From: an uncultured bacterium
GTDB taxonomy: Bacteria; Myxococcota_A; Polyangia; Polyangiales; Houyiibacteriaceae
Assembly: GCA_937984275.1 (NCBI GenBank)
Contig: CALJYC010000248.1
Coordinates: 1-32,379 of the forward strand
DNA length: 32,379 nt
Reading direction: 5' to 3'
The translations under genes and the position numbers were made by a program. Of the stretch, positions 25,380 through 29,372 are shown piece by piece. How positions within the stretch are numbered: position 1 is the first letter of the stretch; each line of letters starts with the position of its first letter. The notes under the pieces were generated by a model. It did not search any database. It was not told the origin of the DNA and was given only the letters and a program-made list of their open reading frames with translations.

Positions 25380-26729
25380 TTGTCGCACCTCGCCACATTG
25401 AGCGTGCCTCCCGTGCGACGGCGCCGGATCTTCGGCCTCGCGCTTCCGATCATAGGCGGCATGCTTTCGCAGAACGTACTCAACCTCGTCGATACGGCGA
25501 TGGTTGGCACGCTGGGCGACGCCGCTCTGGCGGGTGTCGGCCTTGGCGGTTTTGCGAATTTCCTGTTCTCTGCCTTCATTTTGGGCCTTTCCGCAGGTGT
25601 CCAGGCGATGGCGGCGCGGCGGGTCGGCGAAGGGCGTCTCAGCGAAACGGCGATTCCGCTCAACGGCGGCTTGCTACTCGCGCTGATCATCGCGGTCCCT
25701 TGGTCCGCGATCTTGATCACGCTCGCACCCGAGTACTTCCCAGTACTCACGAGCGATGCTGCGGTCGTCGAGCAAGGGGTGCCCTATCTTCGGGCGCGTC
25801 TGTTCGCGATGTTCGCGATGGGGATGAACTTTGCATTTCGCGGATATTGGAACGCGGTCGACAAGTCGATCCTCTACATGCGCACCCTCATCTCGATGCA
25901 TGCGATCAACATTTTTCTCAACTGGGTGCTGATCTTTGGCAACCTCGGAGCGCCAGCGCTCGGCGCCACCGGTGCCGGCGTTGCTTCGGCCATTGCCACC
26001 GTGTTTGGGACCGCGTCGTACTTTTTACTTGGGCGCGGCTACGCGCGCGATGCCGGGTTTCTCCACGGGCTTCCAAACCGAGAGACCATGTCGACGATCA
26101 TTCGGCTCGCAGCGCCGGCTGGTCTTCAGCAGTTCTTCTTTGCGGCCGGGATGACGGTTTTCCTCATGCTCGTAGCCCGTATGGGAACTCCGGAGCTTGC
26201 GGCGACCAAGGTGATCATCGACTTGATCCTCGTTGGCATCTTGCCCGGGATCGGCTTCGGGCTGGCGGCCGCGTCGCTCGCGGGTCAGGCGCTCGGCCGT
26301 GGCGACCCGGACGACGCGAAGCAATGGGGATGGGATGTCACCAAGATGGCGGTCTTGGTCGTGGGAGCGCTCAGCATTCCCGCGGTGTTGGTGCCCGGGT
26401 GGATCCTCAGCGGCTTCATTCACGAGCCGTCGACGCTCGCGCTCGCCGAGAACCCTCTTCGGCTCGTAGCCGCGTTTCTATTCTTCGATGCCGTCGGCAT
26501 GGTCCTGATGAACGCCCTGATGGGGGCCGGTGATGTCAAGCGGGTGATGGTCATCGCCACCGGTTTTCAGTGGCTGATTTTCCTACCGCTCGTGTACCTG
26601 TTCGGCCCACTCATGGGTCTAGGGCTCGTGGTGGTGTTTGCCGTTCAGGTGATCTACCGCGGGTTTCAGTCGCTCACCTTCGCCCTCATGTGGAAGCAGG
26701 GGCGCTGGCAGTCGATCGAGCTTCACTGA
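25380..26729 (+). CDS. MATE family efflux transporter
   Basis: 449 aa polytopic, FGLALPIIGGMLSQNVLNLVDTAMVGTLGDAALAGVGLG. ORF starts at TTG 25380, 3 nt after the SDR stop; an internal GTG may be the true start. Confidence 0.92.
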   Translation: MSHLATLSVPPVRRRRIFGLALPIIGGMLSQNVLNLVDTAMVGTLGDAALAGVGLGGFANFLFSAFILGLSAGVQAMAARRVGEGRLSETAIPLNGGLLLALIIAVPWSAILITLAPEYFPVLTSDAAVVEQGVPYLRARLFAMFAMGMNFAFRGYWNAVDKSILYMRTLISMHAINIFLNWVLIFGNLGAPALGATGAGVASAIATVFGTASYFLLGRGYARDAGFLHGLPNRETMSTIIRLAAPAGLQQFFFAAGMTVFLMLVARMGTPELAATKVIIDLILVGILPGIGFGLAAASLAGQALGRGDPDDAKQWGWDVTKMAVLVVGALSIPAVLVPGWILSGFIHEPSTLALAENPLRLVAAFLFFDAVGMVLMNALMGAGDVKRVMVIATGFQWLIFLPLVYLFGPLMGLGLVVVFAVQVIYRGFQSLTFALMWKQGRWQSIELH

Positions 26730-27130
26730 CGGTTTCGGTGACGTGTTCGCAGCTCCTCGACGCTGTCTTCCCAGTTCTGGCCATCGAAGGTCGACAACGT
26801 GAAGTCCAACAGGTCGACTCCGTCCAAGCAGCGCAGGTTAACGTCGACTTGTTCCGGGTGAGACCGGGGCCTGTAGTACGAGTGGATCCCGCAGTGGCTG
26901 CAGAAATGATGCTTCGCGGTGTGCGTTCCAAACGTGTACGTCGTGATCGCGTCGGCGCCATGGAGGAGCTTAAAGTCGCTCTCAGGCACGATGAGGTGCA
27001 AGAAGCCCTTCTTCGCGCATACGCTGCAGTTGCACTCGATCGCCTCGTGCGAGCGCACCATGACCCGATACCGAACTGCGCCGCAGTGACACCCTCCTTC
27101 GAGGATTTCGGGCGCGGCGTCGGTCGTCAT
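26723..27130 (-). CDS. GFA/CENP-V domain protein (glutathione-dependent formaldehyde-activating enzyme family)
   Basis: Zinc-binding Cys pattern GGCHCGAVRYRV, CNCSVCAKKGFLHL, HHFCSHCGIHSYYRPRSHP. Confidence 0.88.
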   Translation of the reverse strand: MTTDAAPEILEGGCHCGAVRYRVMVRSHEAIECNCSVCAKKGFLHLIVPESDFKLLHGADAITTYTFGTHTAKHHFCSHCGIHSYYRPRSHPEQVDVNLRCLDGVDLLDFTLSTFDGQNWEDSVEELRTRHRNRQ

Positions 27131-27495
27131 TCCACCGGCTCGCCAGTCGACCGGTCGAGCGTCATCCAGGGTGTACCCGCGATCTGGACTTCAATAAGCT
27201 CTTCGGTAACCGACAGCACAGGCTTGCTTGCCACAGCGCCGAGCTCGGCGCGCCACAGTTCCTTGCCCGAGCCGACGTCCTTGGCGACCACGAGGCCCGG
27301 GTCGCCTGACTGCGCTTCGTAGAGGACGCCTTCGCTCAACACCGCGGCGCTGAGCTCTTCGCCCCCAGCATCCTGCACTGCGCGATTGCTCTTCTCGAGC
27401 TGCACGGCGCCAAACCACGCGATCAAGGCGGCCACGAGAACCAAGCCGAGCAGAACGGCAACGACGCGCTTCCCAGACTTGCCCTCTTCAGTCAC
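27127..27495 (-). CDS. Small membrane-anchored protein with a single PQQ-like beta-propeller blade motif
   Basis: N-terminal TM (VVAVLLGLVLVAALIAWFGAV), then VAKDVGSGKELWRAELGAVASKPVLS (A-x-D-x-x-(T/S)Gk-x-x-W pattern). Overlaps GFA by 4 bp. Confidence 0.6.
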   Translation of the reverse strand: MTEEGKSGKRVVAVLLGLVLVAALIAWFGAVQLEKSNRAVQDAGGEELSAAVLSEGVLYEAQSGDPGLVVAKDVGSGKELWRAELGAVASKPVLSVTEELIEVQIAGTPWMTLDRSTGEPVE

Positions 27496-27526
27496 GCTGA
27501 TTTCTTAGCACGTCCGCGGCCAGCGC

Positions 27527-28075
27527 CTAGCGGCGCCACATCTCCCACAGCGGCACGACACTCATCACGGCGTAACTGACGAGCAGTAGCACGCCTGACA
27601 GCGCGTAACTCGCCACTGCGCCCGCGCAGCCATGTGCGACGAGCCACGGCGCCGCGATGTGGAGCAATGTTCCGAACGAGCCTACGGAGATCCACACTGC
27701 TTTCACGTTCTTGCGGGATCGCGAGAGCACGTACATGTGGCTGAGGATCAGCAGGTACACCGGCATCGAGAACAGGTGAAAGTGGGTGACTTCGAGCAGC
27801 TTCCTCCGCGGCATGGGCTCGAACGCGGCGAGATCTTCGCCGTCGGGCGGCAGCACCAACGTGGGGCCCCCCACCGCCTCTTCCTCTTCCGCAGGTGCCG
27901 TCTCACCTCTGTAGTATGCATCGGCGCCGCTCAGGTCGAGCCCGACCATGTCGTGGGTGAGCCACAGCGTGAGCGCCAACCCCCCGAGCGTGAAGAGGAG
28001 AAACACCGTGTACACGGCGCGTGCGCCCAAGGGTAGGGCGCGCAGCCTGCCGGAGGGTCGAGTGAAGTCTTGCAT
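27527..28075 (-). CDS. Four-TM His-rich membrane protein (candidate heme b-binding)
   Basis: 182 aa with four hydrophobic segments and clustered membrane-proximal His: WLTHDM, EVTHFHLFSMPVYLLILSHMYVLS, FGTLLHIAAPWLVAHG. Lies 8 bp downstream of the FMN-binding gene. Confidence 0.65.
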   Translation of the reverse strand: MQDFTRPSGRLRALPLGARAVYTVFLLFTLGGLALTLWLTHDMVGLDLSGADAYYRGETAPAEEEEAVGGPTLVLPPDGEDLAAFEPMPRRKLLEVTHFHLFSMPVYLLILSHMYVLSRSRKNVKAVWISVGSFGTLLHIAAPWLVAHGCAGAVASYALSGVLLLVSYAVMSVVPLWEMWRR

Positions 28076-28083
28076 GGCTCGAG

Positions 28084-28644
28084 CTAGGACGAGGTGAGCA
28101 CAGTGTCATGCAACAGCAGCGTCGCGCGCTTCACGGCTTTGGCCATCGCGCGTGCGGAAAGCGTTGCACCGGAGATCACGTCGATGTCGTGTCCGGGCTT
28201 GAAGCCACTGGCGGCTTCCTTCCCGACGAACTGTTTACGGAACCGCTTGGAACGAATGCCTTCGCCGTAGGGCTCGCGATATGCGACCACTTCGACCCGC
28301 GTCACGCGGCCATCGCAATCGAAGAACGTGGCGAAGTCGATGTACTCGTGCTGACCGATCTCACGGTCGAATAGGGCGTAGCCATCGACGTGCTCTGCCG
28401 AGCGCGCGACGTAAAAGATGTACTCCGACTTCTCGAGCTTCTGGCCGAGCTGTCGTTCGATTCCCTCGCGACGATCCGCTGAAAGCCGGATGCGCTGGAA
28501 ATCCACCAGCTCCGATTGCTGGAACTGCTCCGCGAGGAGACCACGGACGCTGTAATAGACCTGTGCGTGACCGCTTGCGGCCAACCCGGAGGTGACGACC
28601 GAGACGGCGAGCAGAAGGGCAGCTCTATTGAAAACGCCTTTCAT
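28084..28644 (-). CDS. Secreted FMN-binding domain protein
   Basis: ATG 28644 begins MKGVFNRAALLLAVSVVTSGLAASGHAQ (signal peptide). C-terminal DVISGATLSARAM matches the SGAT flavinylation-type motif of FMN-binding domains. Confidence 0.8.
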   Translation of the reverse strand: MKGVFNRAALLLAVSVVTSGLAASGHAQVYYSVRGLLAEQFQQSELVDFQRIRLSADRREGIERQLGQKLEKSEYIFYVARSAEHVDGYALFDREIGQHEYIDFATFFDCDGRVTRVEVVAYREPYGEGIRSKRFRKQFVGKEAASGFKPGHDIDVISGATLSARAMAKAVKRATLLLHDTVLTSS

Positions 28645-28742: not shown

Positions 28743-29372
28743 ATGGGTGCAATATGCCCGAACGCAAGAGCCATGGTCCGGTCACTCCATCATTTGCCGT
28801 CTCGATCGTTTCCCTGGGGACTCGCCCTCGCGCTGTTGCTGTCCGCGCAAACCGCATATGCGGACGCTCCCGCCGACACTGAGGCGCCCGAGCTCATGGT
28901 CGACCTCTTCTCGAGCACGCGGATCTATCCGAATGCCGACGCGGCACTAATGGGATTCGCGATGGGTGCCCTGTGGCGACCAACCGACAAATGCCTCCAC
29001 ATAGCCGGCGAAGGGTTTGCCCGATTCGGCAGCCGAACCTCGGGTGCGGGTGAGGAGCTCAAGATGCGAACGGCCGGCGGCGCACTGGGCGCGCTTTGGG
29101 GCAACGGCGATGCCGACCGTTGGTTTGGCGCAGGGGCGATGTTGGACATGGGTTGGGCCCGGGTCGGTCCGCGCGACGACTTCGCGCTCAGCGCCTACTT
29201 GCGAGCGCTTCTCTATTGGCGGCTTCGCAAAGAGTTCTGGGTCGGCCTGGATGCGCGTGCTGGCCACGTGATCATTCCGGTTACCGTCGAAGCGATTGGC
29301 ATCAAGGGCCCGATGATCGGGCTTGGCGTGGGATTGATGTGGGGCGACGACGGCGGGTATGGCTCGCCCTGA
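28743..29372 (+). CDS. Hypothetical secreted/outer-membrane-like protein
   Basis: Signal peptide FPWGLALALLLSAQTAYADAP and alternating Gly/aromatic segments (AAGGALGALWGNG-like, MIGLGVGLMWGDD). Alternative ATG at 28773. Confidence 0.6.
   Translation: MGAICPNARAMVRSLHHLPSRSFPWGLALALLLSAQTAYADAPADTEAPELMVDLFSSTRIYPNADAALMGFAMGALWRPTDKCLHIAGEGFARFGSRTSGAGEELKMRTAGGALGALWGNGDADRWFGAGAMLDMGWARVGPRDDFALSAYLRALLYWRLRKEFWVGLDARAGHVIIPVTVEAIGIKGPMIGLGVGLMWGDDGGYGSP

Follow-up and report, generated by a model that had tools for sequence, protein, structure and literature searches.

The window analysed here, a 32,379-nucleotide stretch of a 3.49 Mb draft myxobacterial genome (G000), contains a four-gene operon that raises two questions: which of its genes belong together, and where would a predicted exported FMN-binding protein encoded beside a small membrane protein send its electrons? 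The original prediction, made from the letters alone, described the operon as a compact extracytoplasmic flavin electron-transfer unit that does not match the Nqr, Rnf or NosR layouts. That description stands: the key histidines of the membrane protein are conserved, its gene co-occurs with the FMN-binding gene, ApbE is encoded in the genome and the Nqr operon is a separate one. The context supplied with it was incomplete, and missed iron regulation, iron uptake and a conserved outer-membrane porin.

How ferric iron is reduced outside the inner membrane is understood for few Gram-negative systems. Here, we describe a comparative analysis of the operon and propose, with a probability of about 0.6, that its FMN and four-TM genes encode a Fur-controlled flavin electron-transfer module for iron assimilation, which would deliver electrons from the membrane to Fe(III) in the periplasm so that the iron can be taken up. 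The locus offers a concrete three-part candidate (porin, flavoprotein and four-TM protein) that carries a regulatory signature and occurs in the nitrite-oxidising Nitrospira among other lineages, and allows a function to be proposed for a membrane family that has no Pfam entry.

Results

A conserved gene pair within a four-gene operon

The operon and the site at its head comprise the following features.

28628 to 28644: Fur-box-like 17-bp palindrome ATGAAAGGCGTTTTCAA (minus strand), overlapping the FMN start codon; 3 mismatches to WTGAAAATNATTTTCAW
28084 to 28644, minus strand: P0001, predicted exported FMN_bind protein of 186 aa (PF04205, E=1e-9), predicted ApbE substrate at Thr161 (SGAT)
27527 to 28075, minus strand: P0002, four-TM membrane protein of 182 aa with invariant H98, H100 and H113; no Pfam or NCBIfam family
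27127 to 27495, minus strand: P0003, single-TM protein of 122 aa, weakly PQQ-like over one stretch (PQQ_2, E=0.0018, below cut-off), a genus-restricted passenger
26723 to 27130, minus strand: P0004, GFA-domain protein of 135 aa (PF04828, E=5e-16), present in part of the genus and outside the conserved unit

The gene gaps computed from these coordinates are 8, 31 and -4 bp, and a codon-usage gene caller returned the same four genes, flanked on either side by plus-strand genes, in agreement with the predicted layout. The identities proposed for the first and fourth products were borne out by the family matches listed, the SGAT motif was located at residues 158-161 of P0001, and AlphaFold gave four long helices for P0002, which had been called a four-TM protein. 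The third gene had been called PQQ-like; it does have a weak PQQ_2 match, but one that lies below the family cut-off.

The operon had also been taken as a single unit, and of this only the first half survived. In a tblastn comparison of 24 related loci, homologues of P0001 and P0002 stand side by side wherever the contig permits. Homologues of P0003 were found in same-genus loci only, and P0004 recurs at full length in 3 other same-genus loci and as a fragment in 1 more. With the PQQ-like and GFA genes so restricted, a conserved unit of four genes was rejected. In one close relative (L026, 7638-7793) the GFA gene is down to a 54-residue match, a sign of the decay of this fourth gene.

That the four-TM family would co-occur with FMN-binding proteins, a check proposed with the original prediction, was confirmed on a larger scale. 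The family was confirmed in 282 stretches of GTDB, the best 80 of which were used as loci (L050-L068 among them duplicate genomes already represented in L026-L044). The FMN gene lies directly upstream of the four-TM gene in 70 of these 80 loci. It lies elsewhere within about 5 kb or less in 6, five of which have intervening genes, including the porin described below, between the two, and one of which has the FMN gene downstream. It is frameshifted in 1 locus and missing from 3, and in two of the latter the four-TM gene is near a contig end. Across the class, 49 of 318 genomes have the four-TM gene; 47 of the 49 have a strong FMN match, the remaining two being at contig ends, and 2 genomes have an FMN match without a four-TM gene (Fisher p=3e-51, a value that overstates independence, the genomes being related). 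The family ranges over the Myxococcota, the Nitrospirota and one Nitrospinota MAG, the co-occurrence in Nitrospirota being based on the GTDB loci. The FMN and four-TM genes are therefore a conserved pair in myxobacteria and Nitrospira.

Plasmid-borne copies were looked for, and none were found. One apparent fusion of the FMN and four-TM genes (L029/L054) proved to be a frameshifted contig; the FMN gene of this genome, G017, is split over two reading frames (about 1565-2183), reflecting either an assembly error or a recent pseudogene.

P0001 is a predicted substrate of ApbE

The predicted model of P0001 (pLDDT 87) matches the structures of RnfG and NqrC, and its N-terminus is hydrophobic and followed by an AxA-like site, as judged by sequence. 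ApbE-flavinylated proteins are recognised by an FMN_bind domain together with an (S/T)GA(T/S) acceptor site, and P0001 has both, the domain scoring above its cut-off. Among 75 homologues, acceptor position 161 is occupied by Thr in 69 and by Ser in 6, and G159 and A160 are present in all 75. Covalent FMN on P0001 is likely.

The genome was predicted to encode ApbE, and it does so (PF02424, E=9.5e-75; lipoprotein-like N-terminus), as do all 23 genomes with the four-TM gene among the relatives. ApbE co-occurrence was nevertheless rejected as proof, because it discriminates weakly (p=0.014). Nor does the presence of ApbE single out P0001, because the Nqr complex of G000 has its own NqrC with an SGAT site; ApbE in this genome is likely to have at least two substrates. 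The Na+-NQR operon lies on another contig (L151, G000:C58, 4254-10116), where NqrA-F were identified by reading.

P0001 shares with RnfG and NqrC the FMN_bind fold, a domain predicted to be exported and the S-G-A-T/S motif, but it scores far under the RnfG cut-offs, and no other Rnf or Nqr subunits were found in the neighbourhoods examined. Membership of an Nqr or Rnf complex was rejected on these differences and on the separate Nqr operon.

P0002 carries three invariant histidines in one helix

The AlphaFold helices of P0002 span residues 16-44, 90-116, 122-147 and 153-180. Basic residues occur at both termini and in the loop joining TM2 to TM3, and this distribution, read from the sequence, suggests a cytoplasmic position for the two ends. 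Conservation of its histidines had been named as a point on which the prediction could fail. Those of the THFH and SHM motifs (H98, H100 and H113, all in TM2) are invariant in 78 of 78 homologues. The histidine of the LLH motif (H139, in TM3) is conserved in 43 of the 78 and is replaced by Asp in the other 35, which are the Nitrospira-type members. In all of these 35, residue 41, at the outer end of TM1, is a histidine, and each member of the family has at least one of the two. Because TM3 runs antiparallel to TM2, H139 is expected near the depth of H98 and H100. The exchange between these two clades would fit H139 or H41 acting as alternative second ligands of one putative heme near the periplasmic face. 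The H100-H113 (i+13) and H98-H113 (i+15) spacings resemble those of di-heme b cytochromes. A heme in P0002 is plausible.

Relatives of known structure or family were sought with little return. A fold search of the PDB with the P0002 model gave no significant match, matches to mPGES-1 being rejected (E>0.4), and a weak cytochrome b561 match appeared in 1 of the 78 four-TM members. None of the 78 matched the PepSY, MsrQ, NapH, DsbD or DUF4405 Pfam families at values up to E=1.

A conserved outer-membrane porin accompanies the pair

Clustering of neighbouring genes revealed one outer-membrane beta-barrel family, with a median length of 476 aa, in 57 loci from both phyla. This porin is the third conserved partner of the pair, and its gene is mostly positioned before the FMN gene or between the FMN and four-TM genes. 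The Nitrospira members match PF07396, and the myxobacterial members scanned match no family or give sub-threshold barrel matches only. In most species of the window's genus the porin gene sits elsewhere, unlinked to the pair, and still co-occurs with it: within the bacterial family a clear porin match was found in 12 of 15 genomes with the four-TM gene versus 0 of 19 without it, the latter having at most weak 30% matches. The porin of G000 is represented by a 40-residue fragment at a contig edge only. In the Nitrospira MAG at L092 (2766-10516), the porin and a small lipoprotein occur in two tandem copies upstream of the pair.

A Fur-box-like site marks the FMN gene in myxobacteria

The recurrence of similar sequences at the starts of FMN and porin genes pointed to a palindrome in the DNA. 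Rodionov et al. (2004; PMC545781) had predicted a Fur box of this 17-bp consensus, WTGAAAATNATTTTCAW, ahead of the feoAB and fur genes of delta-proteobacteria. The site listed above is the only one in the window at up to 3 mismatches, where 0.12 would be expected. A box with up to 4 mismatches was found at 36 of 41 myxobacterial FMN genes versus 18 of 488 other genes, and the 15 closest non-FMN box genes include 6 porin genes, 3 divergent genes on a common site and 1 feoA on a common site. A chance contribution from the ATGAAA start sequence was considered as the source of the box and found insufficient: 17-mers bearing ATGAAA have up to 4 mismatches in 24 of 24 cases near FMN starts versus 13 of 103 elsewhere.

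In 11 whole genomes there are 1 to 7 box sites each at up to 2 mismatches, versus 0 or 1 for the reversed pattern. The sites examined include ones at a fur gene followed by a cytochrome c-FTR1 permease, at another FTR1 gene, at imelysin and porin genes and about 320 bp upstream of a ferritin gene; several others lie at genes of no evident iron role. In one genome feoAB is divergent to the FMN gene over a perfect box, and in L069 the FMN gene is divergent from genes for a di-heme oxidoreductase (DHOR), imelysin and a porin. The promoter motif of the FMN gene is thus one that also marks known iron genes, the property by which members of a Fur regulon are recognised, and from these sequences the FMN/four-TM pair appears to be switched on under iron scarcity.

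A FUR-family protein is encoded in G000, and several genomes encode two. The Fur regulon of G000 may be small or differently marked, because the single other relaxed box match in this genome is not at a recognised iron gene. This other site, at about 1075 of L174 (G000:C132), overlaps the start of a gene that was identified by reading as sulfide:quinone oxidoreductase-like. Within the window, a divergent gene (28773-29372, plus strand) may use the same Fur-box-like site, which lies 145 bp from its start; the gene encodes a small protein, probably an outer-membrane beta-barrel, that is conserved in the genus (cluster c20).

Iron genes surround the pair in Nitrospira

The Nitrospira loci run in the order solute-binding protein, permease, TOBE-domain ATPase, ExbB, ExbD, TonB-like protein, ApbE (divergent), porin, small lipoprotein, FMN and four-TM gene, with ferritin-like genes further on in many of them. 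The divergent ApbE gene stands beside the operon in most Nitrospira loci with enough sequence. Judged by family architecture, the ABC transporter would be of the ferric type. At the Nitrospira FMN gene no box of the myxobacterial type was found. In 24 of 29 Nitrospira loci the site that best matches the E. coli Fur box, out of the whole locus, precedes the porin gene; nearly all of these have one sequence and so represent few independent events.

Discussion

A proposed route from membrane electrons to ferric iron

The pair probably reduces ferric iron outside the inner membrane, enabling its uptake. We propose that P0002, seated in the inner membrane with both ends cytoplasmic, would be supplied with electrons by the quinol pool or by a donor in the cytosol and carry them, perhaps via a heme b on the invariant histidines, to FMN that ApbE would have attached covalently to Thr161 of P0001. 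P0001 would then reduce Fe(III) or Fe(III) chelates entering by the partner outer-membrane porin, and inner-membrane iron transporters (Feo, FTR1 or ABC) would use the reduced iron. Several observations weigh against this reading. The box of the window has 3 mismatches to the consensus, the other relaxed match in G000 is away from any recognised iron gene, and several box sites elsewhere are at genes of no evident iron role. The ApbE of G000 is also needed for Nqr, and its presence discriminates little. For the putative heme, the exchange of H139 for Asp in Nitrospira makes the second axial ligand uncertain, and the PDB gave no significant fold match.

A more specific version, which we hold tentatively and at somewhat less than even odds, makes the four-TM family a small membrane cytochrome b or quinol dehydrogenase of a new class. 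In myxobacteria and in nitrite-oxidising Nitrospira it would combine with the flavinylated protein of the periplasm and a porin dedicated to the system into a trans-envelope assimilatory ferric reductase. Its heme would have as ligands the TM2 histidines and either H139 or H41, or would sit between the two copies of TM2 in a homodimer. FezC has been modelled with heme sites formed as a homodimer (PMC11334425).

The best-surviving alternative, which we regard as unlikely, holds that the pair is an iron-sparing carrier. Under iron limitation it would take over from a periplasmic carrier rich in iron (a c-type cytochrome, for example) in respiration or in redox repair of the envelope, and iron would be the signal rather than the substrate. 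The regulatory evidence fits this equally well, and the replacement of ferredoxin by flavodoxin under Fur, discussed in PMC545781, is an analogous case; the porin and the neighbouring transporter genes (feoAB, ABC and ExbBD), however, point to uptake. We think it improbable that the regulator is another FUR-family protein (Zur or PerR) or an unrelated factor and that the module serves another metal or a stress response. The second FUR-family protein of several genomes and the box sites at genes without an evident iron function would agree with such a regulator, but PMC545781 describes the consensus as a Fur box preceding feoAB and fur. The box also lies at fur/FTR1, imelysin, feoAB and ferritin genes, and the Nitrospira loci are independently rich in iron genes. 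Least probable of all is the opposite direction, in which Fe(II) or some other donor in the periplasm would feed electrons into the membrane, for example so that FTR1 or an Fbp-type binding protein receives Fe(III). FTR1 systems couple Fe(II) oxidation to transport and cytochrome c-FTR1 permeases are also marked by box sites, but the covalent FMN of NqrC/RnfG-type domains is low in redox potential, which favours donation to Fe(III), and FeoAB, an Fe(II) importer, is on a common promoter with the FMN gene in one genome.

Relation to known flavinylated systems

Electron transfer to ferric iron by the pair would have precedents. PMC8238504 connects flavinylated systems with iron reduction and uptake, and PepSY-like flavinylation clusters with iron reduction and Fur. 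The PepSY-like, MsrQ-like, NapH-like and DsbD partners described there are, like P0002, inner-membrane proteins encoded with an ApbE substrate. The four-TM family differs from them in having no match to their families in any of its 78 members, and in its four helices and three invariant histidines within one helix. DUF4405/FezC cytochromes, known from flavinylation and iron-storage contexts (PMC11334425), are likewise small histidine-containing membrane proteins; the four-TM members do not match DUF4405, and their histidine pattern differs. P19-associated iron uptake (PMC8238504) also places an FMN_bind protein inside an iron-uptake gene cluster, but its membrane component differs, and none of the neighbourhoods examined had a recognisable P19 gene.

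The four-TM protein is a new membrane partner within known flavinylated extracytosolic electron transfer. Its family lies outside the types described in the flavinylation surveys PMC8238504 and PMC11334425, and neither it nor the three-part Fur-boxed arrangement was found in the passages of them searched or in literature searches. The psp genes of Geobacter and Desulfuromonas encode Fur-regulated hypothetical porins that are weakly similar to PF07396 and lie behind the same Fur box (PMC545781). The partner porin resembles them in its Fur box and PF07396 similarity, a likeness by description, but FMN/four-TM neighbours are not reported for psp in that study.

The predicted flavin acceptor itself varies in nature: SGAS replaces SGAT in the FMN proteins of the Sorangium group (L045-L047, L084 and L086), which provides a natural test of serine as a flavin acceptor.
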